Positions 29,469 to 44,571 of a DNA stretch of 44,911 bases are shown piece after piece; position 1 is the first letter of the stretch; every line of letters begins with the position of its first letter. A program made the translations under genes and the position numbers. The stretch covers positions 1-44,911 of the forward strand of contig NZ_JAODOO010000022.1 of assembly GCF_025398335.1 (NCBI RefSeq), given 5' to 3'. The notes beneath the pieces are model-generated. The model did no database searches. It was not told where the DNA came from and was given only the letters and a program-made list of their open reading frames with translations. The stretch comes from Clostridium sp. CX1. Lineage in GTDB: Bacteria; Bacillota; Clostridia; Clostridiales; Clostridiaceae.

Positions 29469-31370
29469 CTATAAAAATTGAGTTACATCAATATTATATT
29501 TTTTTATCTTGTTATATAAAGTATTTCTTGTTATATTTAATACCTGGGAGCAATGAGTTATATTGGCTCTATATTTTTTTAGTACTTTTATCAAATGCTG
29601 CTTCTCAACGTAATCTAAGTTTAGATATTCAGTCTTTAACTCTATAAAAGGTTCCATATCACAGCACTCTTCCCTAAAATAGTGAGTTGGTATAGATTCT
29701 GTATTTATGACTAATTCAATGACATTTTCCAGTTCCCTAATGTTTCCTGGCCAATCATGACTTAACATATTATTTATATATTGCTCAGGTATTTTTATAT
29801 CCGGCTTATTAAGTCTTTTACCTATACTCTTAAAAAAGTGCTTTGCAAGGAGTAAAATATCTGATTTCCTTTGCCTAAGAGGCGGCAAATATATTGGTAA
29901 AACATTTAACCTATAGTATAAATCTTTTCTAAAGTTGCCCTTTTCTACTTCTTTTTTTAAATCTCTATTTGTAGCTGCTATAATTCTAATGTCTACAGAA
30001 ATAGGCTTAGAGCTTCCTATTCTAGTTATGGTACCTTCTTGCACTACCCTTAACAACCTAGTTTGCATTTCTATAGGCATTTCTCCAATCTCATCTAGAA
30101 ATATAGTTCCTCCGTCAGCCATCTCGAAATTTCCTATATTTCCTCCCTTCTTAGCACCAGTAAAAGCCCCATCTTCATAGCCAAAAAGTTCTGCCTCTAT
30201 AAGCTGCTTAGGTATTGCCCCACAGTTTAATGCTACAAAAGGTCCATCGATTCTACTACTGTAATTATGAATTGATTGAGCAAATACTTCCTTGCCAGTA
30301 CCGCTTTCCCCCATTATTAGGATTGTAGACTTACTATCTGAAATCTTTTTTGCGTATTCTACTATTTTTAAAAAATTCTCATCTTCCCCAATTATCTTAT
30401 CAAAAGTATAAAAAGCTCTACAGTTTTGTGCTGCCTTCTTACTTTTTACCGAGTTTTTTCCTATCTCTTCAAATGTGTATACTATTTCAATTACATCCTC
30501 TTCTGAATTATATATAGGAATAGCTGTTAGATTACATTTAAAACTATTTCTTAATGCGTATATATTAACCTCTTGCGACACACTTTCACCTATATATATA
30601 CTTTTTCTAATTTCCTCCCAATCTTCAATTAGCTCACTCATTTCTGAGGTTTTTAACTTATTTTCTCTACTGCCAAACATATGCAGGCCCTTTTTATTAC
30701 ACATCTTAATTTTTCCATCTACATCTGACAGTATTAATGCTACAGGAATTTGATCAAATATAGTTTTTATATGTTTGTTTGTTACATCCTGTAGCCTATT
30801 GCTTTGCTTTGTCATCATTATATCTTCTATGGCTGCAGCTGCTGCCATCACCATACCTAAAGTATGGGATTGTATATGTTTTGCGTATCCAGTAAGATCT
30901 AGTACTCCAATAATCTTTTTGTTTTCATCTCTTATAGGGGCAGCGCAGCACCCCCATTTATGATACGCCTTAACAAAATGATCTTTTCCTAAAATTTTAA
31001 TTGGAGTTTTATCTCTTATAACCATACTCATAGCATTAGTTCCCATATCCTTTTCGTCCATAAATGCTCCTGGAACCATCTTCATAGCAAAGGCCTCTGA
31101 CAGTATTTTTTCGTTTCCTATAGAATTTAAAATACATCCCTCGCCATCAGTAAGAAGCGCAAAAAACTCGTGTTCTTTAGTTACTTCCGTAAGCATTTCC
31201 ATATAGGATGCAGAAGTTACAATCAATTCTCTATTTATAGCAATTTTCTTTTGTAACTCTACTTCATTTAGTATTTTCCTACTATATACTTGGTCTACAT
31301 TAATGCCCCACTTTTTACATCTTTCATGTGAATTTTTAATACTAAGTCTGAAAATTTTTTCATCAATCAC
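29469..31370 (-). CDS. Sigma-54-dependent activator (GAF-PAS-AAA-Fis)
   Basis: A 633-residue enhancer-binding protein of the AcoR/DhaR type. Residues about 50-190 form a GAF-like sensor, about 200-305 a PAS domain, about 325-560 the AAA+ domain with Walker A GESGTGKE (354-361), the sigma-54-contacting GAFTGA loop (401-406) and Walker B FLDEIGE (424-430). A Fis-type helix-turn-helix lies at the C terminus (about 590-630, ITRNTLYNKIKKY). The start is GTG with GGAG close by. It is near the distal end of the molybdoenzyme gene run and is the natural activator for the -24/-12 promoter at 44,556-44,571. The sensed ligand is unknown; an aldehyde or related metabolite is a guess. Confidence 0.93.
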   Translation of the reverse strand: MIDEKIFRLSIKNSHERCKKWGINVDQVYSRKILNEVELQKKIAINRELIVTSASYMEMLTEVTKEHEFFALLTDGEGCILNSIGNEKILSEAFAMKMVPGAFMDEKDMGTNAMSMVIRDKTPIKILGKDHFVKAYHKWGCCAAPIRDENKKIIGVLDLTGYAKHIQSHTLGMVMAAAAAIEDIMMTKQSNRLQDVTNKHIKTIFDQIPVALILSDVDGKIKMCNKKGLHMFGSRENKLKTSEMSELIEDWEEIRKSIYIGESVSQEVNIYALRNSFKCNLTAIPIYNSEEDVIEIVYTFEEIGKNSVKSKKAAQNCRAFYTFDKIIGEDENFLKIVEYAKKISDSKSTILIMGESGTGKEVFAQSIHNYSSRIDGPFVALNCGAIPKQLIEAELFGYEDGAFTGAKKGGNIGNFEMADGGTIFLDEIGEMPIEMQTRLLRVVQEGTITRIGSSKPISVDIRIIAATNRDLKKEVEKGNFRKDLYYRLNVLPIYLPPLRQRKSDILLLAKHFFKSIGKRLNKPDIKIPEQYINNMLSHDWPGNIRELENVIELVINTESIPTHYFREECCDMEPFIELKTEYLNLDYVEKQHLIKVLKKYRANITHCSQVLNITRNTLYNKIKKYNIDVTQFL

Positions 31371-31399: not shown

Positions 31400-32005
31400 T
31401 TAAATATGAGATAAAGTGTAGTTTACAGTACTTATACTAGTTGTTGATTGGTTAACTATTATTTTATTTATACACCCATAGTCCTGTTTTATTTTAAAAA
31501 TATTCTCTAAAGAGATTCCTAAAATATCACTTAGAATAATCCTATTAACCCCTGCATGAGCAACAATCACTGTACTTTCCTTTGTGTCTAGCACTATACC
31601 TTTGAATATATTTAATACTCTATCTTTAAAAACACCAAAGCTTTCCCCACCATCTGGTGTAAAATCTTTTATATACTTTCCTCGATTTTCAAATTCTTTT
31701 GGATACTTATTTTTTATTTCTTCAAAAGTTCTGTTTTCCCACTTACCCATATTTATTTCTCTTAACTCTTTTAATTCTACTTTTTCTATATTTCTACCTT
31801 CTGAAATAATTTCTGCAGTTTTCCTCGTTCTACTTAAATCACTACAATATATTTTTTCTATATAAATTTCACTAAAAAACTTTTTTAATTTCTTTCCTTG
31901 ATTAACTCCTTCCTCATTTAATAGTATATCTGAAAAACCTATGTATCTTTTTTTATCATCAGTATCTATTTTTCCATGTCTGACTAAGTAAATAATTTTA
32001 TTCAT
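31400..32005 (-). CDS. Histidine phosphatase family protein
   Basis: A 201-residue phosphatase with the LVRHGKIDTDD motif (about 7-17) holding the catalytic His10, and a second His in VAHAGVNR (about 148-155). The form resembles CobC/GpmB-type enzymes (alpha-ribazole phosphatase, cofactor-independent phosphoglycerate mutase-like), but no cobalamin genes are near. The start lies eight bases inside the preceding nucleotidyltransferase-HD gene, which signals translational coupling. In this operon it may remove phosphate from a nucleotide or cofactor intermediate; that is inference. Confidence 0.88.
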   Translation of the reverse strand: MNKIIYLVRHGKIDTDDKKRYIGFSDILLNEEGVNQGKKLKKFFSEIYIEKIYCSDLSRTRKTAEIISEGRNIEKVELKELREINMGKWENRTFEEIKNKYPKEFENRGKYIKDFTPDGGESFGVFKDRVLNIFKGIVLDTKESTVIVAHAGVNRIILSDILGISLENIFKIKQDYGCINKIIVNQSTTSISTVNYTLSHI

Positions 32006-33107
32006 ATGAGATAATTTCCTCTATACAATTAATTTTTTCTGCAATTTTCTCTGCATTTTTAAGTCTCTGCTCTATCCTTTTTATAATTTCTGTATCACGA
32101 CAGTATTTTTTAAAGGCTTTATTAAATCTTTCTTTAAGTGAGCTGCTTTCAGAGTCCATATTTAATTTATCTGCTAGATATACTATTTCTTTTTCCGTGA
32201 TTTCCTCTTTCTCATTTACTGAAATGTCCATATGAACTTCTATAATGTCACCAATTTCTCTATATCCTAAACTCCTCATAATTTTACCTGCTGCCTCTGC
32301 ATGGTTTTTTTCTTGCCTGACGATATCATGGAGCAGTGCAGCTGCTCTAATTTTATTTATATTTAAATTCTTACCTTTCCTATTTAATGTCTGAGCTATA
32401 TTTACAGCAGTTGCTGCTACAGCTTCTCCATGGCTTACTATTTTTTCAGGAACACTGTATTTCCTTAATATTGCACTACATTCCTCTTCATTTGGTGTGT
32501 CATAAAAAGTAAAATAATTTAGTAAATTATTATAATCTTCTAAAGTATCCATATCTAACAATATTCCATTATCTATTACTTCAATAGTTGATGAGTCTTT
32601 TTCGTATAAGCTTAGCACCTCTCTTAAGCCACCGCTGCTAATGTTTTTTATTATGTTATTCTTATACTTAGTAGATATTAAAGGGGGATGTCCTTTTTTC
32701 CCCTTAAATTGTGGATAAATAATACCCTTTTCTCCTTTTAAAAATTCTTCTTTAAGCAATTCCAAAGTCTTTATTTTTATTAGGGGTATATCCACAGGAA
32801 TTAAAAAAAAACCTTTTGAATCTTTATCAATTTCACTAAGTGCTTTTAAAACAGATGAACTCATTCCTTCTTTATACTTTTCATTTAGTATACACCTTAC
32901 CGATTCCTTCTTTAATACATTTACTATTTCCTCGGCTCTATGCCCCACTATAACTAAAATGTCCTCTATACCAGCACTAATAAAAGTTCTTATAATCATC
33001 TCTACCGCTGTAACCCCTCCAAATTTAAGTAGTGGTTTGAACCCATTCATACGAGAAGATAATCCTGCAGAAAGTATTATAGCTGAATATTTACAACTAT
33101 CTTTCAT
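31998..33107 (-). CDS. MobA/MocA-like nucleotidyltransferase fused to HD domain
   Basis: A 369-residue two-domain protein. Residues about 8-195 are a MobA-like NTP transferase with LSAGLSSRMNGFKPLL (12-27), the NTP-binding loop, and a metal-binding PVDIP near 104-108. Residues about 205-369 are an HD phosphohydrolase with His226, His260-Asp261, His292 and Asp313 as the likely metal ligands. Such transferases attach CMP to molybdopterin to make the cytosine dinucleotide used by xanthine-oxidase-family enzymes. The HD partner is not part of the classical MocA. I recall this fused form as the DVU_1551 family. It starts on the stop codon of the XdhC gene. Confidence 0.88.
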   Translation of the reverse strand: MKDSCKYSAIILSAGLSSRMNGFKPLLKFGGVTAVEMIIRTFISAGIEDILVIVGHRAEEIVNVLKKESVRCILNEKYKEGMSSSVLKALSEIDKDSKGFFLIPVDIPLIKIKTLELLKEEFLKGEKGIIYPQFKGKKGHPPLISTKYKNNIIKNISSGGLREVLSLYEKDSSTIEVIDNGILLDMDTLEDYNNLLNYFTFYDTPNEEECSAILRKYSVPEKIVSHGEAVAATAVNIAQTLNRKGKNLNINKIRAAALLHDIVRQEKNHAEAAGKIMRSLGYREIGDIIEVHMDISVNEKEEITEKEIVYLADKLNMDSESSSLKERFNKAFKKYCRDTEIIKRIEQRLKNAEKIAEKINCIEEIISYE

Positions 33108-34150
33108 TATTTTTTTTCCCTTCTTACTTTTATTAACTCTGCAGCAATACTTACCGCTATCTCTTCAGGAGTCTGGGCAGAAATTGGTAAACCTATTGGA
33201 GCATATACTCTAGAAAGGTCCTCATTGTTATATCCCTCTTCTAATAAATTATTGTAAGTAATCTTAATTTTATTTTTACTACCTATCATTCCAATATATT
33301 TAGCATTGGTTTTAAGCATCTGAGATAAAACTTCTTTATCATAAGCATGTCCTCTTGTAACTATTATTACATAACTTTGCTTGTCTATTTTTATTTTATC
33401 TGATAAATTCTTAAAGGAAGGAATTACAATAACCTCATCCGCTGTTTTAAATCTATCCATATTTGCAAATTCTGCTCTATCATCTAGAACAATAGTTTTA
33501 AAATCTACTAGCTTTGTTATATCTGCGAGCTTTTGGGATATATGCCCCGCTCCAAATATATATACAGTTTCAAGATTTAGTACCGGTTCTATAAAATACT
33601 CTTTATCGTTAACATCTACAGTATGAATAGTCAGTTCTTTAAATCTTTCCCTAACCTTTTTAAAAACCTCTTGTACAGAATCTTCTTCTTCTCCATAAAA
33701 ATCTGTTTCAGTACAAATCCACTTATAAGGTTTTCCTTCACCAAAACTATCTTTACTAATTCTACTAATTAAATAAAAGTTAACCCCTCTTTCTTCAAGT
33801 TCAAATGCCTTTTTATATATTGCTGTTATAGTACTTCCTTCACCATCTATATATTCAACTAAAACCTTTAAGTTTCCTCCACAAATCATTCCTATAGAAG
33901 AAGCTCCTTCATTGGATAAGTTGAAATCTTCAACAACAGAACATTTATTATTTAAAACCATATTAGCTAGTTTTATAGTTAAAGCCTCAAATATTCCTCC
34001 ACCTACTGTTCCTATGATAGAAAGGTCTCTTTTTATAATCATTTTGGTCCCTTTCTCCCTAGGGGCAGATCCAGATTTATCTAAGATAGTGACCAAAGCA
34101 AAGCTTTCTTTTTTATCCAAAAGTTCTATAATATCTTTATATAAAATCAT
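33107..34150 (-). CDS. XdhC/CoxI-family molybdenum cofactor maturation protein
   Basis: A 347-residue protein of the XdhC family, which binds the molybdenum cofactor, helps its sulfuration and delivers it to xanthine-oxidase-family enzymes. The N-terminal part has VTILDKSGSAPREKGTKMII (about 20-39), GTVGGGIFE and MICGGNLKVLVE. The C-terminal part is a Rossmann-like domain, VYIFGAGHISQKLADI (about 193-208), followed by GMIGSKNK near 295. It overlaps the neighbours on both sides by one base (stop/start TAATG). The context with a MobA-like transferase and Mop fits a role in Mop maturation. Confidence 0.92.
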   Translation of the reverse strand: MILYKDIIELLDKKESFALVTILDKSGSAPREKGTKMIIKRDLSIIGTVGGGIFEALTIKLANMVLNNKCSVVEDFNLSNEGASSIGMICGGNLKVLVEYIDGEGSTITAIYKKAFELEERGVNFYLISRISKDSFGEGKPYKWICTETDFYGEEEDSVQEVFKKVRERFKELTIHTVDVNDKEYFIEPVLNLETVYIFGAGHISQKLADITKLVDFKTIVLDDRAEFANMDRFKTADEVIVIPSFKNLSDKIKIDKQSYVIIVTRGHAYDKEVLSQMLKTNAKYIGMIGSKNKIKITYNNLLEEGYNNEDLSRVYAPIGLPISAQTPEEIAVSIAAELIKVRREKK

Positions 34151-35523
34151 TATCCTTCATACTCCCTTCTATAATCATAAATTCTTCGTTTTAAGGTTCC
34201 ATTGCCACTTTCCTTTTCTCTATCAGGAAGCAAAATTTTAATCTCTAAAATTCCTTTTTTAATAGATTTACTTATTACAGGTATTTGATTTAGATTTCTT
34301 ACAATTTCATCTTTTACAACTTCAAAGTTTTCCTTGCTAACATAAGCTGTTATAACAAGTTCACTTTTTTCTTCTATATTATTTTCTCTATAATTATACA
34401 ATTTTCCTTCCTTTTTATTGTAAATTTGTGATTTAGAGTTATCCATAACACTAACTTCATAATTCATAATTTCTTTTATTTTAATGAGATTTTCATCTAT
34501 ATCTCTCATATTTAAAAAATTACCATCATAAATTTCAACTTTATTTTCTATTCTTCCTAAAATTCTATCCATGGTCCTTAATACTGTACCGCAGTCGCAG
34601 GCCTTCGCACTGAATCTTCCTTTATCACCGGTGCGATACCTAATTAGAGGCATTCCTTTTCTTGTAAGAGTTGTGAATACTATTTCACCGTATTCTCCAT
34701 CCTTTACTTTTCTTCCTGTGGTAGGACTAACTACTTCAAAATATAGATCTGCTTCTCTTAAATGATATCCCTTTAGAGATTCACACTCTACTCCTCCCCC
34801 TAATCCCATCTCAGTCATACCATAATGAGTAAAAACCTTGCAATTCCCTGAATCCGTCAATTCCTCTATAAGTACATTAGGAACATAATCTGTACTTAAC
34901 AATACCTTTTCTATACTATTAGAAAAAACTTCTTTTTCCTTTCTACTTAATGAAAGCACCTGAACAGGTATTCCTACTAGGGAATTTATGTTTTTTAATT
35001 TGATAATATTCGATACTTCCTTTACATCTTTTATGGGGCCCTGTATATAGGATTCCACATTTATTCTACTTAAAGCCTTTTTTAATAAATCTCCTACAGA
35101 GCCAGATATTTCCCCGGGCAATAGTATGAGCACTCTATCATTACTATTTACAATATCCTTCATGCCTTCTTTAAAAAAATCTATAGTAAGCTCTTGATCT
35201 TCCTCTGTAAAAAATATTCTTTTTGATTTTCCTGTAGTTCCAGAGGTGTTAAGAGATACAATTCTACTTATATATTGTTGGGATACACATAAAAATCTAA
35301 GAGGATTGTCCTTTATATCTTCTGCTGTAGTAAAGGGGACTTTCTCAAAATCTTCAAAAGAATTAATATCATTTTCATTAATATATCTTAACTGTTCCTT
35401 ATAAAATCTACTATTATTTTTCACATAGTTTATATTTTCCTTTAGCTTTCTTAACTGATAGTCTTCTATGTCCCTGCTCCCTATTTTCTTAAATATCCAA
35501 TTTTCAAGAGATGTTTTTTTCAC
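34150..35523 (-). CDS. PaaK-like AMP-dependent acyl-CoA ligase
   Basis: A 457-residue adenylate-forming enzyme. The P-loop SLNTSGTTGKSKR (90-102), the later THYGMTEMGLGGG (about 232-244) and the hinge region RTGDKGRF near 297 are typical of the phenylacetate-CoA ligase-like group, which activates carboxylates as acyl-AMP and transfers them to CoA. Substrate specificity is not evident. The start is GTG with AGGAGG, two bases after the radical SAM gene. I recall it as the DVU_1553 family. It may activate the carboxylate made by Mop or a precursor of an unknown cofactor. Confidence 0.88.
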   Translation of the reverse strand: MKKTSLENWIFKKIGSRDIEDYQLRKLKENINYVKNNSRFYKEQLRYINENDINSFEDFEKVPFTTAEDIKDNPLRFLCVSQQYISRIVSLNTSGTTGKSKRIFFTEEDQELTIDFFKEGMKDIVNSNDRVLILLPGEISGSVGDLLKKALSRINVESYIQGPIKDVKEVSNIIKLKNINSLVGIPVQVLSLSRKEKEVFSNSIEKVLLSTDYVPNVLIEELTDSGNCKVFTHYGMTEMGLGGGVECESLKGYHLREADLYFEVVSPTTGRKVKDGEYGEIVFTTLTRKGMPLIRYRTGDKGRFSAKACDCGTVLRTMDRILGRIENKVEIYDGNFLNMRDIDENLIKIKEIMNYEVSVMDNSKSQIYNKKEGKLYNYRENNIEEKSELVITAYVSKENFEVVKDEIVRNLNQIPVISKSIKKGILEIKILLPDREKESGNGTLKRRIYDYRREYEG

Positions 35524-35525
35524 TG

Positions 35526-36881
35526 TTACTTCCTCCTGCGATATAAATAATTTCCCTTTATATCTGTAAGATTATATGCGCAGAAAGGAATAAGTTTACC
35601 TTCTGGATTTACCACATGTATGCAGCAATCCTTTACTCTCTCTAAATCTATATTCCAAACATCTTGAAAGGCCATACCGGAAATGCTAAAGGAATAATTC
35701 TTAATACTTTGGATAATATCGTCCCAGTTCATGATTTGTGAGGTACCCATTTTAATATTAGAGTTGACATTGTTTCTTTCGGACCAATTTCTAGCCACAA
35801 ACTTTTTTGCTTTTTCCGCTCCAGCTTCTGCTTTTTCACTGCTGCAGCAACAATCACTAGAGTGCTTAGTTACTTGAGATAGCTGTCCATTTCCTTTATA
35901 TATATAGTTACCATGGAAGGAGCAAAAAGAATTTTCACAACCTGGTGGTCTAAAGCTTTCCTCTTGAATTCTTCCCCCAGTCTGCTTTTCTATAGCCCTA
36001 ATCACCTCTGGTATAGTAACTCTATCCTCATCCTTAGGAATATCCGGAATCCTTCCAAAGTAACTTACTGGTTGAAAATGTACTCCTCTTACTGTTGGCA
36101 GATTTTCTAGAGCAAAATCTATAATAGCACCTATGTTGTCTATATTTATTTTAGGAACCAAAGTAGGAACAAGAATCACTCCAATATTATATTTTTTACA
36201 ACTTTCTATAGCCTTTAGCTTTAAGTTGAGAAGTTTTTTTCCTCTTAACTTTTCATATATGCTGTCATCCATACCGTCAAATTGTAGGAAAATAGAATTA
36301 AGACCTGCCTCTTTAAGCTTCTTAAGGTAGTCCTCCTCCTCTGCAATACGGACTCCATTAGTATTTAATTGTATAAAACTAAAGCCTATGGAATGTCCTA
36401 GTCTTATTATTTCTGGTAAATCCTCTCTTACTGTAGGCTCTCCCCCTGATATTTGTATATTGCAATTACCACTAGACTTTAAAACAGATCTATAAAGAAA
36501 CTCTATTTTATCTAGTGTTAATTCACTAAAACTGATGCCAGAATTAGCAAAACAAAAGCTGCAGTTTAAATTACATTTGTCTGTAACCTCTATAAGTGCA
36601 GTGCAGGTATGTTGCCTATGTTCTTTGCATAATCCACAATCAAAGGGACATCCTTTTTCTATCTCTGTAAAGGGAGTTTTAGGGTAGGAAGGTATTTTAT
36701 TTCTAATCCAGCTCTCTATCTTAGGACTATCCCTCCATATAATAGTTTTAAAACTCCCATGATATTCACATTCCTTTTGTAAGTAAACATTCGTTCCCTC
36801 TTTTATTTTTTTTGCTTCTATTTTCTTTAGACAAATAGGACATAAACTTTCTGTTTCAGAAATCACTGTAGCTTTATCCAT
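35526..36881 (-). CDS. trsS: Cys-rich radical SAM protein (TrsS-like)
   Basis: A 451-residue radical SAM enzyme. The SAM-cluster motif CNLNCSFC has Cys103, Cys107 and Cys110, followed by the SAM-binding GGEPTVRED (about 145). Extra Cys groups suggest further metal sites: a zinc-ribbon-like CPIC pair at 14/17 with Cys38, Cys78/82/85/93 just before the radical SAM motif, a C-terminal DCCCSS, and DCCIHVV with a later PFCAYN. I recall this as the TrsS family, some members of which are selenoproteins; here the positions are Cys and no in-frame TGA is needed. The reaction is not known. Its stop precedes the ligase gene by two bases. Confidence 0.82.
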   Translation of the reverse strand: MDKATVISETESLCPICLKKIEAKKIKEGTNVYLQKECEYHGSFKTIIWRDSPKIESWIRNKIPSYPKTPFTEIEKGCPFDCGLCKEHRQHTCTALIEVTDKCNLNCSFCFANSGISFSELTLDKIEFLYRSVLKSSGNCNIQISGGEPTVREDLPEIIRLGHSIGFSFIQLNTNGVRIAEEEDYLKKLKEAGLNSIFLQFDGMDDSIYEKLRGKKLLNLKLKAIESCKKYNIGVILVPTLVPKINIDNIGAIIDFALENLPTVRGVHFQPVSYFGRIPDIPKDEDRVTIPEVIRAIEKQTGGRIQEESFRPPGCENSFCSFHGNYIYKGNGQLSQVTKHSSDCCCSSEKAEAGAEKAKKFVARNWSERNNVNSNIKMGTSQIMNWDDIIQSIKNYSFSISGMAFQDVWNIDLERVKDCCIHVVNPEGKLIPFCAYNLTDIKGNYLYRRRK

Positions 36882-36883
36882 AG

Positions 36884-37336
36884 TTACTCCCTTTCTCCAA
36901 AATCGTATTCATGTTTATATAATATTTCCTGAAGTTTTTCATAGCTTTTTATAAGTATATTGCCGCACTTTATGGGATAACTTACATTGCCCTCACTATC
37001 ACTTATCACATGGGCTCCAACTATATCCCCGCATTCGATACTCTCGAATTCTTCTTCAAACCATTCCATATATTCGTTAATCATTTCATTAAAGGCTTCA
37101 CCTTTACTTTCTCTAGCTTCTCCTTTACCTGCATATAAGGATAAAATACATATACCTCCTGTAACAACTCCACAGGTTCTTTTTGAAAAACCTATGCCGC
37201 CGCAGAGCCCATTTACTGCTTTTATTAAATCCTTGTTTTCCTTTCCCTCTTCCTCTAAAGCCAGCTTAAGAAGTATTTGTGTGCAGCAAAAACCTTCTGA
37301 GGATAGCTTGTAAATATCAAATGCTATATCATTCAT
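36884..37336 (-). CDS. C-GCAxxG-C-C family Cys-rich protein
   Basis: A 150-residue soluble protein with Cys17-Cys18 in EGFCCTQ, then NGLCGGIGFSKRTCGVVTGGICILSLYAG (Cys45, Cys55, Cys63), which is the C-GCAxxG-C-C domain layout, and two more Cys at 102 and 124. Such proteins are thought to bind an Fe-S cluster or metal, usually in redox contexts, but their function is not settled. GGAGG precedes the ATG. It lies between the methyltransferase and the radical SAM gene and ends two bases before the latter starts. I recall the subgroup as DVU_1555. Confidence 0.85.
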   Translation of the reverse strand: MNDIAFDIYKLSSEGFCCTQILLKLALEEEGKENKDLIKAVNGLCGGIGFSKRTCGVVTGGICILSLYAGKGEARESKGEAFNEMINEYMEWFEEEFESIECGDIVGAHVISDSEGNVSYPIKCGNILIKSYEKLQEILYKHEYDFGERE

Positions 37337-37381
37337 CTTATTACCTCCAGATTACTCATATTTATGGAGAACTTTATTATA

Positions 37382-38101
37382 TTAAGTTTTTCTTCCGACT
37401 ATAATGAAATATCCAACCTTACACCTGCGCAAAATTTCTTCAAATTTAGAGGAGTTTATACTGCATTCAGTACTGTTACGCCAAAATATATTCATAGAAC
37501 CATACGTAAAAATAATTTTTATCATCAATTGCTTTAATAAATCTGAACAATCTTTGCAGAGGGCTATTTTAAATCCCTGTCTTATAAACTCCTCTTTTAA
37601 CTCCTCTAAATCATGAAGCCCTCTCATACAGCTATTAAAGGAAAAATCTTTTAATTCGTGAATAAATTGTGGATTCTTGGCATACACATCTGTAGCAATA
37701 AAATACCCATCTTTCGCTAAAACTCTATAGGCTTCAGAAATAACTTTATTTCTGTCCTCCATAAGAGATAATGTACACTCTGCAAAAATCCCTTTCATAC
37801 TGCTTTTTTCAAAGTCTAAAGATTCTCCCCTTCCCTCTACTAAATTAAGTTTTTCATTTCTCTTTTTTCCTATTTCTATTAATTTTCTTGAGGGATCTAT
37901 ACCGACAGCCTCTAATTCATACCTGTCCCATAAATACTCTACAGTAGCTCCCATTCCACAGCCTATATCTAATAGCTTATCTCCCTTTCTAAACTTACAA
38001 AATTCTACAGCCTCATCGGTTAAACAAAATCCCCCTGGTCTCAAGGTAGTTCCTAGAGCTTCCCTCATAGCCCTACTTTCATAAGCATTGCAACTGACCA
38101 T
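37382..38101 (-). CDS. Class I SAM-dependent methyltransferase
   Basis: A 239-residue cytoplasmic methyltransferase with motif I LLDIGCGMGATVEYLW (43-58), the acidic motif at AVGIDPS (about 65-71), and LVEGRGESLDFE then FAECTLSL further on. I recall this subgroup as DVU_1556. The substrate is unknown. A conserved-looking N-terminal Cys4, a mid-protein Cys (ALCKDCSDLL, about 196-205) and a second at the end (ECSINS) are possible metal or thiol sites. It starts two bases after the small redox protein gene. With a radical SAM protein next door it may modify a small molecule or a protein. Confidence 0.87.
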   Translation of the reverse strand: MVSCNAYESRAMREALGTTLRPGGFCLTDEAVEFCKFRKGDKLLDIGCGMGATVEYLWDRYELEAVGIDPSRKLIEIGKKRNEKLNLVEGRGESLDFEKSSMKGIFAECTLSLMEDRNKVISEAYRVLAKDGYFIATDVYAKNPQFIHELKDFSFNSCMRGLHDLEELKEEFIRQGFKIALCKDCSDLLKQLMIKIIFTYGSMNIFWRNSTECSINSSKFEEILRRCKVGYFIIVGRKT

Positions 38102-38103
38102 AA

Positions 38104-38310
38104 TTATTTGTCCTCCAGTCCCTTTTCCACTTCCAGCATTTTACCTGCCGCTAACTCTTCTGTTATAAGTACCATACCGCATTTAGGACATTTCATTAGT
38201 TCCACTTCAAAGTTTCCTCCAAGATAAGTTACATTTGTTTTTCTAAGCTGTAGATTTATACCACAATTAAAACAAATCCAAGGCACTTGCTCTTCACTTT
38301 TAGTATTCAT
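38104..38310 (-). CDS. Small two-CxxC redox or zinc-ribbon protein
   Basis: A 68-residue protein with Cys13-x-x-Cys16 (CFNC) and Cys41-x-x-Cys44 (CPKC), the layout of a zinc ribbon or rubredoxin-like protein. The pair spacing and the GMV after the second CxxC are like rubredoxin-related proteins, but the aromatic core of true rubredoxin is not seen. I recall it as the DVU_1557 family redox protein. GGAGG overlaps the end of the upstream large flavoprotein gene. It may shuttle electrons or bind zinc; which is not clear. Confidence 0.82.
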   Translation of the reverse strand: MNTKSEEQVPWICFNCGINLQLRKTNVTYLGGNFEVELMKCPKCGMVLITEELAAGKMLEVEKGLEDK

Positions 38311-38313
38311 ATT

Positions 38314-40575
38314 TTAGCCCTCCAAAACTTCCATTCTATGACTATAAACATTGTGAACAAGATATTTTTCTTGTTCATATTCATACTCAACCCAATAGGT
38401 CACATTTGCCAATCTTTTTCTAGCTAAAAAATGACCATTGTTAGGATTTACAAATTTCTCTACATTACTTTCAGCATTCTTTATAACCTTTTCCACATCC
38501 TGTAAAAGAATTAATTTATCTTCCATCTTTTCTTCTATAGACTCTGATAAAATAATATTTGCTGCTATTTCTCCACCATGGTGAATGCTTTCACCGTAAA
38601 GCTTTAATAACTCTTCTTTAACCTTAGTCCTATTTAATCTTCTTTCCCATAACTTAGGACCTTTTCTTTCTCCTAACTTTTCTAAGTCCTCACCATAAAT
38701 TAAATCTAAAATATGAAAAGCTCTCTTTCCTTCTAATGAAAATAAATCTCTGCACATTGAACAATAAACTACATAATCTTCCTCTGCTTCATTTATTCTA
38801 TCTTTTATGAATTCCTTTGACTGTTCTTTATTAGCATAATAAATAAGACCCCCATAGCCACAGCACTTAGTTTTTTCTCTTGAGAATTTAAGCTCCTTAA
38901 CAGAATGCCCTAATTTCTTTATGATTTTTCTAACACTATCTTGAAGTGTGCTATCATATCTCGTAGTGCAAGCATCATGTATACTTAAGGTTTTATACTC
39001 ATGTCTACTATTTTCCTGTGGTATTCCACTCTTATCCATAAACTCCCACAGTGAAACACAATTTATTTCTGGTATATAGGTTCTGAATATATTAGAGCAG
39101 GTTGAACAAGCTAGAATTAAAGAAGGCTTACCCATACTCTCCCACTTTTCAATAGTATTTTTAATGCTAGCCTCAAACTCTTTTTTGCGACCTGACCATT
39201 CTGCTGGTGCACCACAACAGCCTAGCATAATACCTACTCCATCTTTAATCTTTGTAGTCAAGTAACTATATATTTTAGAAATATACTCTGGGGAGGAGGC
39301 ACTTAGCTGACATCCTGGAAAGAATAGGTGGCTGCTGCGTTCAAAACCAGGCTGGTGTTTTAATAGAGTAAATTTATCACTATTACTAAATTCCATATCT
39401 TTCAAGGCAAAATCATGGGCGGAAGGAGGCATTTTTTCTTTTTCTACCATACTTTGACGGGTTTCTATAATTATATCCCTCATGTTAAGCTTTGAAGGAC
39501 AAACTTCACCACATAAACCACATAAGCTACAGGAGTTAATCATTTTATTTGCATGGTGATCTCCCAATATAATAGCTTCATTATGATTTATGCTTCTTAT
39601 ATAGCTCTTAGGAGTCATTTTGAATTTTTTTAGGTGTACACATGAATTAACACATTCAAGGCATTGACATCTAATGCATCTCTTTGCCTCTAAAACTGCT
39701 TCCTGTTCACTGTATTCACCTTTATCACTTCTGTTTATAGGCAATATTTTTTCAATATTCTCCGTGTTTAAAGTAAGAGGAGTAGTATAGGAACCTTCAT
39801 TTTCCCTTGATGCAGTCATAGATATTTTTTGAATATACCTGTCTACAGATACAGCTGCTCTTCTTCCTGTAGATATAGAATATATAACTGAATCATTTTT
39901 GTTTACTAAAGTTCCTCCTGCAAATACCCCTGGTATTTTAGTCTGAAATGTGGAATCACTAATCTCCAAATCTTGATGCCATTCTCCTGTATCTATGCAG
40001 ACCGCATCATAGTCCTTTGATATTTTTTGGAGTTCTTCTTCTCCTACTTTACTATTAAACCTTATGGATATTTTTCCTTTTTTGATATGCTCAAGCTCTT
40101 CCTTAAGAAGCTCTGGTGGTAATTGAAAATTCCACATCCTTCCACCTATTTCTGCTTTTTCTTCAAATATAGTCACAGCATAGCCTTTCTTATCTAAATC
40201 TAAGGCAACAGTAAGACCACTTATTCCTCCACCTACTACTGCAACAGTCTTACCATTTTTAGGTATGGGAAATTCTTTTTTTGGAGTTCCATAACCGTGC
40301 TTTATTACTGCTTTTTCAAGTGCACCTATAGATATAGCACCGCCCAAATCTTTTCTGATACAAACCTCTTCACAGGGATGATCACAGATGTTGCATATAA
40401 TTCTTGGAATAGGTACTCTTTTTGCTAAGGTTTTATAGGCCTTTTTAAGATTTCCTTCGCTTACTTCTGCAATAAAGGTCTTTATATCCACATGTATAGG
40501 GCACTGTGCTATACATGGAGATGGTTTATCTGTTATACATAGCTTCTCTTTACTCAACAATTTTTCTAAATCCAT
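38314..40575 (-). CDS. FAD/Fe-S/CCG-domain electron transfer protein
   Basis: A 753-residue multidomain protein. Residues 1-75 form a GltD-like Fe-S region (Cys13, 21, 25, 61, 64, 68, 72). Residues 111-250 are an FAD fold (VVGGGISGL at 114-122, GVFAGG near 216-221). Residues 300-360 have ferredoxin-type Cys groups (300/303/305/308/312 and 349/352/355/359). Residues 422-608 are two CCG repeats (Cys422, 453, 454, 490, 493 and Cys536, 571, 572, 605, 608) as in HdrB and GlpC, which hold a non-cubane Fe-S cluster. The NADPH-binding subdomain of GltD is absent. Residues about 645-753 are an extra domain I do not recognise. It follows Mop and is likely its electron partner. Confidence 0.88.
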   Translation of the reverse strand: MDLEKLLSKEKLCITDKPSPCIAQCPIHVDIKTFIAEVSEGNLKKAYKTLAKRVPIPRIICNICDHPCEEVCIRKDLGGAISIGALEKAVIKHGYGTPKKEFPIPKNGKTVAVVGGGISGLTVALDLDKKGYAVTIFEEKAEIGGRMWNFQLPPELLKEELEHIKKGKISIRFNSKVGEEELQKISKDYDAVCIDTGEWHQDLEISDSTFQTKIPGVFAGGTLVNKNDSVIYSISTGRRAAVSVDRYIQKISMTASRENEGSYTTPLTLNTENIEKILPINRSDKGEYSEQEAVLEAKRCIRCQCLECVNSCVHLKKFKMTPKSYIRSINHNEAIILGDHHANKMINSCSLCGLCGEVCPSKLNMRDIIIETRQSMVEKEKMPPSAHDFALKDMEFSNSDKFTLLKHQPGFERSSHLFFPGCQLSASSPEYISKIYSYLTTKIKDGVGIMLGCCGAPAEWSGRKKEFEASIKNTIEKWESMGKPSLILACSTCSNIFRTYIPEINCVSLWEFMDKSGIPQENSRHEYKTLSIHDACTTRYDSTLQDSVRKIIKKLGHSVKELKFSREKTKCCGYGGLIYYANKEQSKEFIKDRINEAEEDYVVYCSMCRDLFSLEGKRAFHILDLIYGEDLEKLGERKGPKLWERRLNRTKVKEELLKLYGESIHHGGEIAANIILSESIEEKMEDKLILLQDVEKVIKNAESNVEKFVNPNNGHFLARKRLANVTYWVEYEYEQEKYLVHNVYSHRMEVLEG

Positions 40576-40617
40576 TTTCCACCTCTTTATGATGAGATAT
40601 TATTTATTATGGAACTT

Positions 40618-40646
40618 AGAGAGTGAGAATAGAATTCTCACTCTCT
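40618..40646 (-). repeat. Perfect 13-bp hairpin between mop and the flavoprotein gene
   Basis: AGAGAGTGAGAAT (40,618-40,630) pairs with its complement (40,634-40,646) around a three-base loop. It follows the mop stop codon by about 45 bases. The minus-strand sequence after it is not T-rich, so it is a weak terminator at best and may instead stabilise the upstream transcript end. Confidence 0.7.
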
Positions 40647-40692
40647 AGTACTGAAATAATATAGTTACTTAATTATGAACTATAATTTTATG

Positions 40693-43413
40693 CTATTTTT
40701 TAAGTGCTGCTAAAACCTTTTCTGGTAAAGCTGGTAACTCAGTAATTTGTACTCCACAGGCATCATAAATTGCATTAATTATAGAAGCATGAGGTGCTGA
40801 TAATGGCATTTCACCTGCACCTGAAGCACCATATGGACCGTTTGGTCTCTTAGTTTCTTGATAAATTATTTCTATATTGTCAGGTACATCCTTGATTTGT
40901 GGAATTCCACATCCGGTAAGTGTAGTGTGTTTCTTCAAGTCTTCAAAGTCTTCGCTTAAGGCTAATCCAATACCTTGAACTAATCCACCATACATTTGAC
41001 CATCAACTACAAGCTTGTTAACTATAGTTCCTAGATCTGCTATTAAAGTAAGCTTATCTATATTAGTCTTTCCTGTAGTAGTATCTACTTCTACCTCTGA
41101 CATAAGAACACCATACATATAAGTTGGGAATGGGTTTCCTTGACCATCTTTTGGATCTGGAGCATTACAAGGTGCTGTCCATGATCCAGCATATTTTAAA
41201 TCTTTACCTGCAGCTACCATTTCATCATAAGTCATGTAAGTGCCATCAGCTTTTTTCATAGCTGCTAGTAGATTCTCACAAGCAACTCTAGTAGCATTAC
41301 CAGTTACAACGTTAGAACGGCTTCCACCTGCAGGACCGCTATTAGGAGTTTTCTCCATATCATTCATAACTAATTTTATTTTCTCTGGAGCTATTCCTAT
41401 TGGTTTTAAAGTTTCATGAGCTATAGTTAAAGTTCCCATGTCAGCTCCTTGACCATGGTCTTCCCAAGAGTTTCCTACAGTAACTCCTGCTTTAGTTAAC
41501 TCTGCCCATGCATGTGAAGTATCTGGACCATCAAGACCACAACCATAGATTAATAAGGAAGTTCCTACTCCATATTTTTTATCTCCGCCCTTAGCATTCT
41601 TCTCTGCAGCATTTTGCTTAGCTGTCTTATATAGTGGACGTAATTTTTCAATCATACTTGGTAAGCAGATTACGTCTGGATCACAGCCAGTAGGAGTTTT
41701 ATCGCCCTCTCTGTAAACATTCATATATCTCAATTCAAGAGGATCTACCCCCATCTTCTTAGCTAGTTTATCAACTAAAACTTCTGAAGCAAATAAACTC
41801 TGTGGTGAACCATATCCCCTGAATGCTGAACCCCAAGCATGGTTTGTAGCGACTGTTCTTCCGTTTCCTCTTATATTTGGAATGTTATATCCTGCACCCA
41901 TAAATTGTGAACCTCTAGTAGTTACAAGGTCACCAAATTCACAATATGGACCGTGGTCAACGGACCAGTCAGTTTCTAATGCATTGAATTTTCCGCTCTT
42001 GTCAGCACCTAACTTAAGATGCATAAAGAAAGGAGATCTCTTTCCAGTATAAGTTATTTGTTGATACATATTGAATTCCAAGAATACTGGTCTCTTTGTT
42101 ACTAATGCTGCTACCCCAAGAAGACCTTCCATAGTTGGACTAAATTTATATCCGAAAGTACCACCTGTAGGATTTTGAACTATTATTACGTCCTCTAGAG
42201 GAACTCCTATACCATCTGCTACCATAAGCGCATGGAAATGAAGTGCTACACTCTTTGAATGTATAACTAATTTCCCATCTTCGTTAAAATAAGCAAATCC
42301 AACATCTGGTTCTAGTGGAAGGTGTGGTTGTCTTCCTACATATGAATCATCTTCAACTACATATTCTAATGAATCCATTAAAGGTTTTGTATCTTCACCT
42401 TTTATAGTAGAACATTCAAAATAAATATTTGGTGTTCCAGGATGAATTTCTATAGCATCTTCAGCCATAGCTGCTGGAGCACTCATGTACGCTGGTAATT
42501 CTTCTAATTCCACTTTAACTTTTGCTGCTGCTGCTTCTGCTTGACATGGTGTATCAGCAAGAACCATAGCTATAGCATCACCAAATTGGAATACCTTTTT
42601 ATCATTTAATATTGGTCTTTCTAGTCCATCTCCTTTATTAGATGGGAAAGCCAATCCATTTATTCTATTAGTTCCCGGTACATCCTTATATGTTAGAACT
42701 CTATAAACACCAGGCATTTTTTCTGCTTCTGAAGTATCTATAGATAATATATTTGCATGAGATACTGTTGCTTGTACTAATTTAATGTGTAATGTATTTT
42801 CTGGAAGTTTTAATCCTAAATCTGCTCCAAAATCCCAAGTTCCTGTTACTTTTGCTAGTGCAGAAGGACGTATAGCCTTTGAACCTAAAAGACTTTCTCC
42901 CTTTGGAAGCTTACTCCATAATTCTTCTTTTGTTACTTCTCCACGGATTAACCTTGCTGCTTCCATAACTGCATCAACTAATGGCTTATATCCTGTACAT
43001 CTACATAGATTTCTATTTTTCTGGAACCAAGCTCTAACATCTTCTCTTGTTGGATTGTTATCACTTTCAAGTAGTGCTTTAGCTGAAACTATAAATCCAG
43101 GTGTACAGAAACCGCATTGTGCTGCACCATGTATCATCCAAGCTAGTTGTAATGGATGAAGATGTTTTTGGTCTCCAACTCCTTCTATAGTTATAATTTC
43201 TGCTTCATCAGGAACTCTTTTCATTCTAGTTATGCAAGATCTTACAACCTTGCCATTTAAAATTACAGAACAAGCTCCACATTCTCCTTTTCCACAACCT
43301 ACCTTAGTACCTGTTAAAAGTAATTGTTTTCTTAAAACATCAGATAAAAGCCCCTCTGCTTCTGCAATAACAGTTCTTTGAACCCCATTAATAGTTAAAT
43401 TCTTTTTTATCAT
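40693..43413 (-). CDS. mop: Molybdopterin-dependent aldehyde oxidoreductase
   Basis: A 906-residue xanthine-oxidase-family enzyme oxidising aldehydes to carboxylates with a Mo-cytosine-dinucleotide cofactor. The Fe-S ligands Cys40, 45, 48, 60 and Cys100, 103, 137, 139 fall at the same positions as in Desulfovibrio gigas Mop (907 residues), as does the catalytic Glu868 in GASGAGEMPL. There is no FAD domain, again as in Mop. The Mo domain runs from about 190 to the end with KFSPTMEG and AWGSAFRGYGSPQ. A longer frame from TTG at 43,431 overlaps the AAAGGAG site, so the ATG at 43,413 is the start. It is cytoplasmic or loosely associated and needs the maturation genes downstream. Confidence 0.95.
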   Translation of the reverse strand: MIKKNLTINGVQRTVIAEAEGLLSDVLRKQLLLTGTKVGCGKGECGACSVILNGKVVRSCITRMKRVPDEAEIITIEGVGDQKHLHPLQLAWMIHGAAQCGFCTPGFIVSAKALLESDNNPTREDVRAWFQKNRNLCRCTGYKPLVDAVMEAARLIRGEVTKEELWSKLPKGESLLGSKAIRPSALAKVTGTWDFGADLGLKLPENTLHIKLVQATVSHANILSIDTSEAEKMPGVYRVLTYKDVPGTNRINGLAFPSNKGDGLERPILNDKKVFQFGDAIAMVLADTPCQAEAAAAKVKVELEELPAYMSAPAAMAEDAIEIHPGTPNIYFECSTIKGEDTKPLMDSLEYVVEDDSYVGRQPHLPLEPDVGFAYFNEDGKLVIHSKSVALHFHALMVADGIGVPLEDVIIVQNPTGGTFGYKFSPTMEGLLGVAALVTKRPVFLEFNMYQQITYTGKRSPFFMHLKLGADKSGKFNALETDWSVDHGPYCEFGDLVTTRGSQFMGAGYNIPNIRGNGRTVATNHAWGSAFRGYGSPQSLFASEVLVDKLAKKMGVDPLELRYMNVYREGDKTPTGCDPDVICLPSMIEKLRPLYKTAKQNAAEKNAKGGDKKYGVGTSLLIYGCGLDGPDTSHAWAELTKAGVTVGNSWEDHGQGADMGTLTIAHETLKPIGIAPEKIKLVMNDMEKTPNSGPAGGSRSNVVTGNATRVACENLLAAMKKADGTYMTYDEMVAAGKDLKYAGSWTAPCNAPDPKDGQGNPFPTYMYGVLMSEVEVDTTTGKTNIDKLTLIADLGTIVNKLVVDGQMYGGLVQGIGLALSEDFEDLKKHTTLTGCGIPQIKDVPDNIEIIYQETKRPNGPYGASGAGEMPLSAPHASIINAIYDACGVQITELPALPEKVLAALKK

Positions 43414-43461
43414 ATACCTGTCTCCTTTCAAGGATAAATAAAAATATATTATATTAAAAAA

Positions 43462-44493
43462 TTAATATAATCCCCCTTTTCCAAAGCTGCAGTTTGGATA
43501 CCTGCACTCTTTGCATTGTAAACACATTCCCCCATGTCCAAGCTTTACAATATCATTCTTAGTTACTTTTTCTCCTGCTAATAGTCTTGGTATTACTAAA
43601 TCAAAAATCGTTATTTTATTGTACATAACACAACCTGGTAAACCAAGAACAGGAATATCATTTATATAGCTCAGCAAAAACATTGCACCTGGCAAAGTTG
43701 GTGCGCCATAAGAGACAATATCTGCACCTGCCTTTTTAATTCCTAGAGGAGTTACGTCATCTGGATCTACAGACATGCCTCCTGTAACAGTTATTAGCTC
43801 TACTCCCTCTTCTATAAGAGATTTAATAGACGCGGCAATGTACTCTGAATCATCCTTTGCAAATACCTGTTTTTCTACAGTACATCCTAATTTATCAAAC
43901 TTACTACGTATTACTGGTCCAAACTTATCTTCAATTCTTTTGTAAAATACTTCGTTTCCAGTTGTAACAATGCCAACCTTCTTGTTTTGTAAAGGTAATA
44001 CCTGCACTATAGGATAATTATCGCTGCAAATTCTTTCTATACTTTTAATTTTTTCCTCTTTTGTTACTAATGGTATAATTCTAGTTCCTGCAATAACTGT
44101 GTTTCCTTCTACTAATTGATTGGTATGCAATGTGGCAAACATTATATCATCAACACTATTTATATCATCCAAAGCCCTATAGTTTACCTTTAACAAACCT
44201 GGGTACTTTGATAATAGACTTACTTTTCCTTCCTTAGGCTCAGAAAAAGTTACTCCCTTTCCAGCTGCTGCCTTTGCCATTCTTATTGCGGCATCGTTTT
44301 CATGTAAGTCTCCCTCATTAAATTCCATAATAAATATGTGTTCTTTTCCCATATTTAAAAATCTCGGAATCTCCTCCTCAGTTATTATATGTCCTTTTTT
44401 AAATGCGACTTTTTTGTGCTCCCCAGGAATTATTTCAGTCATATCATGCCCAAGTACCATTCCCACTGCTTCCTGAACAGGTAGTAACCTCAC
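43462..44493 (-). CDS. Molybdopterin-binding protein (MoeA/MogA-like) with Cys-rich tail
   Basis: A 343-residue protein. The C-terminal half holds a MoCF-biosynthesis (MogA/MoeA) domain: GIVTTGNEVFYKRIED (174-189), VTGGMSVDPDDVTP (236-249) with the metal-binding Asp pair, LPGAMFLL and GLPGCV (284-289). The N-terminal half (about 1-165) lacks a recognised MoeA domain I pattern. The tail CLQCKECRYPNCSFGKG has Cys324, 327, 330 and 335 and looks like a metal site. The start is GTG with GGGGGAG upstream. It is the first gene of the operon, 45-50 bases ahead of mop, and probably inserts molybdenum into the cofactor for Mop; this is inference. Confidence 0.88.
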   Translation of the reverse strand: MRLLPVQEAVGMVLGHDMTEIIPGEHKKVAFKKGHIITEEEIPRFLNMGKEHIFIMEFNEGDLHENDAAIRMAKAAAGKGVTFSEPKEGKVSLLSKYPGLLKVNYRALDDINSVDDIMFATLHTNQLVEGNTVIAGTRIIPLVTKEEKIKSIERICSDNYPIVQVLPLQNKKVGIVTTGNEVFYKRIEDKFGPVIRSKFDKLGCTVEKQVFAKDDSEYIAASIKSLIEEGVELITVTGGMSVDPDDVTPLGIKKAGADIVSYGAPTLPGAMFLLSYINDIPVLGLPGCVMYNKITIFDLVIPRLLAGEKVTKNDIVKLGHGGMCLQCKECRYPNCSFGKGGLY

Positions 44494-44555: not shown

Positions 44556-44571
44556 AGCAAGTCTTATGCCA
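44556..44571 (-). promoter_or_regulatory. Sigma-54 (-24/-12) promoter of the mop operon
   Basis: The minus strand reads TGGCATAAGACTTGCT. GG (-24) and GC (-12) are separated by the canonical ten bases and flanked by TGGCA and TTGCT, close to the consensus TGGCACGNNNNTTGCW. It lies about 60 bases before the start of the first gene. A sigma-54 activator gene is encoded in the same gene run. Confidence 0.85.

Follow-up and report, generated by a model that had tools for sequence, protein, structure and literature searches.

An operon around a molybdenum aldehyde oxidoreductase: a possible electron-acceptor system with a linked module for a redox group

Why is a molybdenum (Mo) aldehyde oxidoreductase encoded together with a radical S-adenosylmethionine (SAM) protein, a methyltransferase, an adenylate-forming ligase and small cysteine-rich proteins? 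The question is raised by an operon (positions 44493 to 31400, minus strand) in Clostridium sp. CX1 (assembly GCF_025398335.1, contig NZ_JAODOO010000022.1); the whole stretch of 44,911 nucleotides that was analysed is called the window. An initial annotation of this DNA had described eleven packed genes around the aldehyde oxidoreductase Mop and proposed that they build a modified cofactor, install a post-translational change on Mop or process its product. We find that the gene set is a widespread, nearly obligate companion of Mop, and that Mop and its cofactor are probably not modified by the accessory genes. Tentatively, and with somewhat less than an even chance of being right, we read the locus as an operon for aldehyde oxidation that encodes its own electron-acceptor proteins, together with a linked module for the supply of a probably sulfur-type redox group. 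The earlier interpretation as a whole is partly supported.

Inspection of the reading frames from 44493 to 31400 confirmed eleven packed genes, all open and all on the minus strand, in the order first described. The gaps between them measure, in order, 45, 117, 3, 2, 45, 2, 2, -1, -1 and -8 bases, in agreement with the original description of gaps of 0-50 bases or overlaps except for the 117 bases after mop. The likeness to DVU_1551-1559 of Desulfovibrio, suggested in the initial annotation, could be substantiated: nine of the eleven proteins exceeded the curated NCBIfam cut-offs of the models for that set, and all nine models of the series were matched. The D. vulgaris set (NF045645, NF045646, NF045663-NF045669), which we compared via these models and related loci, comprises the same families; the series holds no model for the MogA-like or phosphatase genes. 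In the order of the operon, with values given as score/cut-off, the genes are:

43462..44493, minus strand: MogA/MoeA-like molybdopterin-binding protein (Pfam MoCF_biosynth 75.5/26.6)
40693..43416, minus strand: Mop, molybdenum aldehyde oxidoreductase, D. gigas type (NF045668 1642.5/1100 bits; 1sij E=0)
38314..40575, minus strand: Diclust, with a flavin adenine dinucleotide (FAD) domain, a 4Fe-4S dicluster and two CCG motifs (NF045663 1030.9/530 bits)
38104..38310, minus strand: DVU_1557 family, zinc-ribbon/rubredoxin-like, C-terminus ...GKMLEVEKGLEDK-stop (NF045645 100.3/60 bits)
37382..38101, minus strand: DVU_1556 family SAM methyltransferase, with Cys109 and Cys158 (NF045667 240.9/155 bits)
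36884..37336, minus strand: DVU_1555 family C-GCAxxG-C-C protein, here GCAxxG (NF045669 168.7/103 bits)
35526..36881, minus strand: TrsS, radical SAM protein of the Tes superfamily, with Cys93 and Met403 (NF045646 710.8/490 bits)
34150..35523, minus strand: DVU_1553 family PaaK-like adenylate-forming ligase (NF045666 453.6/300 bits)
33107..34150, minus strand: XdhC-family maturation factor (NF045664 436.5/350 bits)
31998..33107, minus strand: MocA-like nucleotidyltransferase fused to an HD domain, MocA-HD, DVU_1551 family (NF045665 441.5/315 bits)
31400..32005, minus strand: histidine phosphatase, CobC-like (CobC model barely passed, 165.8/162.9)

The start of Mop was taken at an ATG, and a TTG is present at 43431. 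In the profile search the MogA-like protein stayed below every NCBIfam cut-off; it has a conserved C-terminal tail with four cysteines (C324, C327, C330, C335). Loci with the same core arrangement, apart from local swaps and some splits, are found in Desulfobacterota, Bacillota and Chloroflexota, and with gaps in Synergistota. Because it recurs across these four phyla, the gene set is not a chance assembly. As the initial annotation held, the radical SAM protein, the methyltransferase, the ligase and the cysteine-rich proteins are not known to have a place in textbook Mo-cytosine-dinucleotide assembly.

The co-occurrence of TrsS and Mop was surveyed in two samples. Among 299 genomes of the Bacillota, the phylum of the window, 17 had a TrsS and 19 a Mop above the respective cut-offs. 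Mop is present in all 17 TrsS genomes, over the cut-off in 16 and, in one (G076), as a fragment where a contig ends. The tally of genomes with Mop only depends on the treatment of partial matches: of the three other genomes with Mop over the cut-off, G072 has a TrsS that adjoins Mop and is cut by a contig end (469.5/490 bits), G083 has only a TrsS relative from another clade and G207 has no TrsS match, the latter two being assemblies in 450 and 310 pieces, respectively; G073, with a partial Mop, has no TrsS and is in 220 pieces. DVU_1557, as DUF7479, exceeded its cut-off in 20 of the 299 genomes, namely 18 of the 19 with Mop over the cut-off (not G083), G076, and G285, which otherwise gave weak matches only. 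The second sample comprised 199 genomes of the Desulfovibrionaceae, the family of Nitratidesulfovibrio oxamicus, with thresholds of E<=1e-200 for Mop and E<=1e-60 for TrsS. Mop was found in 133 genomes (a few of these matches being paralogues with about 48% identity), TrsS in 131 (128 over the cut-off) and both in 127 (Fisher p 2.6e-39). Of four genomes with TrsS only, two have Mop cut at a contig end (G423, G502) and one has a contig that starts inside the cassette (G481), whereas in the fourth (G309) contig ends give no explanation. Six genomes have Mop only (G299, G335, G360, G432, G486, G494); Mop lies at a contig end in G299, G335 and G432, and G360 has paralogues only. TrsS was also present in 19/19 further genomes reached from 20 named loci and, within the genus of the window, in 7/7 genomes including the window's own; it was absent from 27/27 genomes of other genera in the family. 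For ten atypical loci that had been selected deliberately, TrsS lay on another contig of the same genome in seven and was not found in three. The idea that these genes belong with Mop therefore holds for 17/17 TrsS genomes of the Bacillota and 127/131 of the Desulfovibrionaceae, and TrsS homologues over the cut-off do not occur mostly without a Mo hydroxylase.

Whether Mop itself is the target of these genes can be judged from D. gigas. Mop of the window matches D. gigas Mop (1SIJ, 1VLB) over its full length with 63% identity; both are single-chain enzymes, and no difference relevant to the cofactor was seen. One Desulfovibrionaceae genome, that of D. gigas (locus L160), encodes a Mop 100% identical to the crystallised enzyme. 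Ten of the eleven genes follow one another there on one strand, in the order MogA, Mop, Diclust, DVU_1557, methyltransferase, GCAxxG, TrsS, ligase, XdhC and phosphatase, and the MocA-HD gene lies elsewhere in the genome (330.3/315 bits). A nitroreductase-family gene is inserted between Mop and Diclust (L160 7918-8571). D. gigas Mop, whose structure was the first to be solved in the xanthine oxidase family (PMC10223205), was purified from D. gigas cells and its native structure determined at 1.28 Å; its cofactor is described as pyranopterin cytosine dinucleotide, with a sulfido ligand neither present nor needed (PMC3877041). The passages of that account which deal with the enzyme mention no post-translational change or other modification, the term post-translational being absent from its text (PMC3877041), and the metal centres and pterin rings are praised for their definition in a second text (PMC10223205). 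Because D. gigas has all eleven genes and its native Mop nevertheless shows the ordinary cofactor, a modification of Mop is disfavoured; both the modified cofactor and the post-translational change proposed initially find no support here, at least in these passages. Any modification of Mop would have been absent, lost or overlooked in the D. gigas material.

The organisation of related loci divides the accessory genes into two modules. Contigs were scanned with the Mop alignment; the 80 named loci are the best of 504 relatives, most of them picked by Mop identity, and the denominator for each gene is the number of loci with sufficient sequence downstream of Mop. Diclust (64/64) and DVU_1557 (63/63) are always present there, followed by the methyltransferase (55/59), GCAxxG (54/57), TrsS (52/57) and the ligase (48/52), while XdhC (35/47), MocA-HD (30/47) and the phosphatase (29/47) are less constant. 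For four of the five loci without adjacent TrsS the gene was found elsewhere in the genome, and for one (L100) none was found. In two pairs of loci (L088/L162 and L141/L163) the set is divided into Mop-Diclust-DVU_1557 on the one hand and methyltransferase-GCAxxG-TrsS-ligase on the other. Natural fusions among 98 loci join Diclust to DVU_1557 in eleven cases and TrsS to the ligase in one (an open frame of 892 codons). An apparent fusion of GCAxxG with TrsS (L111) was dropped: in it GCAxxG is missing its end and TrsS its first 150 residues, which is more likely due to a deletion or an assembly fault. Pairwise distances, uncorrected for ancestry, tracked those of Diclust at 0.885 for TrsS, 0.76 for the methyltransferase, 0.839 for GCAxxG and 0.795 for the ligase; the corresponding values against Mop, likewise uncorrected, were lower (0.628, 0.439, 0.615 and 0.334).

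Diclust is similar to the FAD half of Nfn/GltD proteins and also to EtfD (Foldseek match 9ojn). All 83 Diclusts of at least 650 residues carry two complete CCG motifs with conserved cysteines, a pattern typical of the disulfide-reducing sites of HdrB and shared with EtfD-type proteins. Unlike these proteins, Diclust joins the CCG part to the Nfn/GltD-like FAD domain, apparently without the domain for reduced nicotinamide adenine dinucleotide (phosphate), NAD(P)H, as judged from partial profile matches. Unlike HdrB systems, the operon has no HdrA or membrane partner among its eleven genes.

In DVU_1557, four cysteines, one tyrosine and the C-terminal end are invariant in 24 aligned rows. A lysine closes all 84 complete sequences (82 of them different), as LEDK in 80, MEDK in two and LEEK in two, and such conservation of the end is seen in none of the other cassette proteins, save Diclust where DVU_1557 is fused to it. 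In the structure-sequence search DVU_1557 mostly matched zinc fingers, with a weak match to MasE 9o8u (E 0.0035). AlphaFold2 modelled the core of the window protein alone with a predicted local distance difference test (pLDDT) of 84-91 and its tail with 60 (residues 51-60) and 50 (residues 61-68); in the model of a natural Diclust+DVU_1557 fusion the last three blocks reached 96, 92 and 81 (predicted template modelling score 0.90), a comparison that mixes alignment depths of 24 rows for the protein alone and 122 for the fusion. Gene order, fusions and structure prediction support the view that DVU_1557 would be a partner or C-terminal domain of Diclust, with its LEDK tail docking on Diclust. 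As an analogy, LysW and DsrC are likewise small and have an invariant tail at the exact C-terminus. LysW has a zinc ribbon and a tail that ends in glutamate, and the tail of DsrC is a cysteine motif; DVU_1557 differs in ending in lysine, and no ATP-grasp ligase was matched in the operon.

The solved structure nearest to TrsS is that of the tetraether lipid synthase Tes (GDGT-MAS; MJ0619, 7TOL). TrsS keeps the residues of its metal sites, i.e. the rubredoxin site and the two auxiliary clusters including the Cys/His pattern of the N- and C-clusters, and Met403 occupies the place of the labile ligand in 76/78 rows. Still, TrsS scores 385.3 bits on the Tes model NF045702, below its cut-off of 450, and has about 38 fewer residues than Tes between its two aligned stretches. 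The 25 Mop-linked TrsS proteins form a group of their own with a support of 100/99 in a 38-row tree (midpoint root only); the position of Tes in this tree has weak support (92/74), and some of the long branches could be wrongly placed. Because TrsS stays below the Tes cut-off and is grouped apart, a lipid function like that of Tes was set aside. Position 93 of TrsS is cysteine in 80/81 rows (the damaged L111 excluded), where the Tes alignment has isoleucine. The remaining row, a TrsS from Synergistaceae (L153), has an in-frame TGA exactly at this position, fitting selenocysteine. Cys93/selenocysteine was dropped as a hallmark of TrsS since relatives outside the Mop group (L053-L056) also carry cysteine there. 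The zinc ribbon of TrsS matches a Pfam domain named after HMPTM, a pterin methyltransferase. Pterin modification, as this name would suggest, was set aside as well: the group that solved the structure of the founder MJ0619 could, in the passage concerned, not corroborate its assignment as a pterin methylase.

TrsS relatives also occur outside Mop cassettes. Of six matches in plasmid records, four were examined, and in three of them, two haloarchaeal and one from Mycolicibacterium, a methyltransferase gene directly follows the TrsS relative; its best model was DVU_1556, below the cut-off (130.1, 124.9 and 136.3 of 155). In the fourth record, which is unannotated, no such gene was seen behind the TrsS relative. 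The haloarchaeal TrsS pair is placed next to the Mop-linked group (95/86) and the Mycolicibacterium protein elsewhere in the midpoint-rooted tree. More distant relatives (L053, L055, L220, L222) adjoin Lgt-like membrane proteins, as judged by eye, and are possibly bacterial membrane-spanning lipid synthases. At L054 (9008-11814) a tandem pair of TrsS-like radical SAM genes is accompanied by genes that by eye are acyl-carrier-like and ketoreductase-like, possibly a lipid or natural-product pathway.

Cys109 of the methyltransferase is invariant (73/73 rows) and Cys158 is found in 62/68 ungapped rows. By eye, their places presumably correspond to those of the arsenic-binding cysteines of ArsM. 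The methyltransferase missed the cut-offs of the ArsM models (67.4/240 and 50.6/263 bits) and gave a weak match to the structure 5evj; in contrast to ArsM systems, no arsenic genes were matched in the operon. For the C-GCAxxG protein no match was found among solved structures at E<=1. The ligase is PaaK-like by profile.

Together, the two modules, the invariant tail of DVU_1557 and the HdrB-type motifs of Diclust, none of which the initial annotation had noted, point to an electron-acceptor system. We suggest that Mop of the window oxidises aldehydes, as established for the D. gigas enzyme, and that the MogA-like protein, XdhC and MocA-HD would assemble and insert its ordinary Mo cofactor, as expected from their families. 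Electrons from Mop would pass to the FAD/iron-sulfur protein Diclust, whose CCG motifs appear to belong to the type that carries out disulfide reduction in heterodisulfide reductase, and DVU_1557 would act as its partner or C-terminal domain. The most likely task of the methyltransferase, GCAxxG, TrsS and the ligase would then be to produce a redox group of the sulfur type, or to attach it to DVU_1557, for use at the CCG site, and they would act on neither Mop nor its cofactor. Judging from its cysteine-rich sites, the chemistry of this second module is probably of the sulfur type. A more specific version, which we regard as quite unlikely, places a new sulfur-containing prosthetic group on the terminal lysine of DVU_1557, built by TrsS and the methyltransferase and attached by the ligase, where it would serve as a swinging-arm two-electron acceptor between Mop and the HdrB-type site of Diclust.

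Several observations weigh against an electron-acceptor system of this kind. The CxxC-CxxC pattern of DVU_1557 is found in 80/85 sequences, and the five without it are all fused forms; moreover, the LEDK tail is without the conserved C-terminal cysteine that makes DsrC a disulfide partner, and the higher confidence of the tail in the fusion model has to be read with the difference in alignment depth noted above. Among complete ligases, 17/68 have 390 residues or fewer, and motif matches are incomplete in both length groups. In examples of the short form the sequence stops shortly after the YRTGD motif, so that the C-terminal domain usual in such ligases, which acts in thioester formation, is missing. 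Because some ligases are short and motif matches incomplete, ligase activity is putative. Closer tracking of Diclust than of Mop is also seen for MocA-HD (0.869 v 0.763) and for the phosphatase (0.824 v 0.574) and is hence no special trait of the second module. In 3/3 cases (L051, L052, L057), TrsS relatives from a different clade adjoin Mo enzymes of the dimethyl sulfoxide (DMSO) reductase family (thiosulfate reductase and formate dehydrogenase were the best models, with scores under the cut-offs), and the TrsS superfamily may serve Mo enzymes in some way that our proposal does not capture. Finally, flavodoxin has been proposed as the partner of Mop and carried electrons from it in vitro, as stated in part of a published account (PMC10223205).

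The neighbours of the DMSO-reductase-family enzymes would also suit a maturation of Mop, in which TrsS and the methyltransferase alter the Mo cofactor or install a post-translational change on the enzyme. The almost perfect co-occurrence of TrsS with Mop and the HMPTM-named zinc ribbon agree with such a role; the ordinary cofactor of native D. gigas Mop at 1.28 Å, from a genome that carries the genes, and the pterin-methylase assignment of MJ0619, which its structure group could not corroborate in the passage cited above, speak against it, and we find it distinctly improbable. DVU_1557 could alternatively be a carrier like LysW, on whose C-terminal lysine the ligase, the methyltransferase, TrsS and, as a biosynthetic step, Mop would build a small molecule that is then released. 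This would account for a small zinc-ribbon-like protein with an invariant extreme C-terminus in one operon with a ligase, a methyltransferase and a radical SAM enzyme, and the carrier-peptide logic has precedents in pearlins and LysW in those parts of the literature that describe them. Yet an ATP-grasp ligase is missing from the models matched by the eleven genes, DVU_1557 accompanies Diclust rather than the ligase in fusions and split operons, and a proteome table lists DVU_1559, that is Mop, under ethanol metabolism and not as a biosynthetic enzyme; we consider this carrier role unlikely.

Processing of the Mop product, with conversion of the carboxylic acid to a coenzyme A thioester by the ligase and further metabolism by its neighbours, seems to us improbable. 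A PaaK-type ligase suits aromatic acids, and iron-alcohol-dehydrogenase-like genes were seen by eye near 11 loci; the short ligases, examples of which are without the domain that acts in thioester formation, do not fit such a pathway, and TrsS, the methyltransferase and DVU_1557 would be left unexplained. Very unlikely, in our estimate, is a handling of arsenic or another metalloid by an ArsM-like methyltransferase with TrsS, as a protection of the Mo hydroxylase. Arsenite is an inhibitor of Mo hydroxylases, Cys109 and Cys158 look by eye like the arsenic-binding residues of ArsM, and the TrsS-methyltransferase pair of Halorarius follows a weakly arsenate-reductase-like protein (62.6/174.3). 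However, the scores of the methyltransferase fall well short of the ArsM cut-offs, the models matched by operon genes include no arsenic regulator, pump or reductase, and neither the ligase nor DVU_1557 nor the split modules would be explained.

The operon is probably under sigma-54 control, as suggested by two further features of the window that the initial annotation did not mention:

44557..44571, minus strand: sigma-54 (-24/-12) type promoter TGGCATAAGACTTGC (strict pattern scan)
29469..31370, minus strand: sigma-54 activator, probable operon regulator (best models PrdR and DhaR, below both cut-offs)

The promoter site lies 63 bases ahead of the first gene and is the only one in the window that fits the strict pattern; the activator gene begins 29 bases downstream of the last gene of the operon. 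Strict sites within 400 nucleotides upstream were found for 10/95 cassettes, including two near-duplicate pairs, compared with 5/980 random stretches. The iron-alcohol-dehydrogenase-like genes near 11 loci (L087 and L034 among the cassette loci scanned) were named by eye, and a cluster with an ATP-binding cassette (ABC) transporter ATPase, of the molybdate type by eye, lies near 13 cassette loci.

Our literature searches on the locus names and on TrsS/TrsM found no functional paper and no role assigned to the companion genes of Mop. The set itself is already catalogued by NCBIfam. The invariant tail of DVU_1557 offers a defined place to look for the redox group. Should the second module turn out to produce a new redox group, the aldehyde-oxidation route of many sulfate reducers and of some Bacillota and Anaerolineae would use an unrecognised electron carrier, and the radical SAM superfamily of Tes would gain a function beyond lipids.

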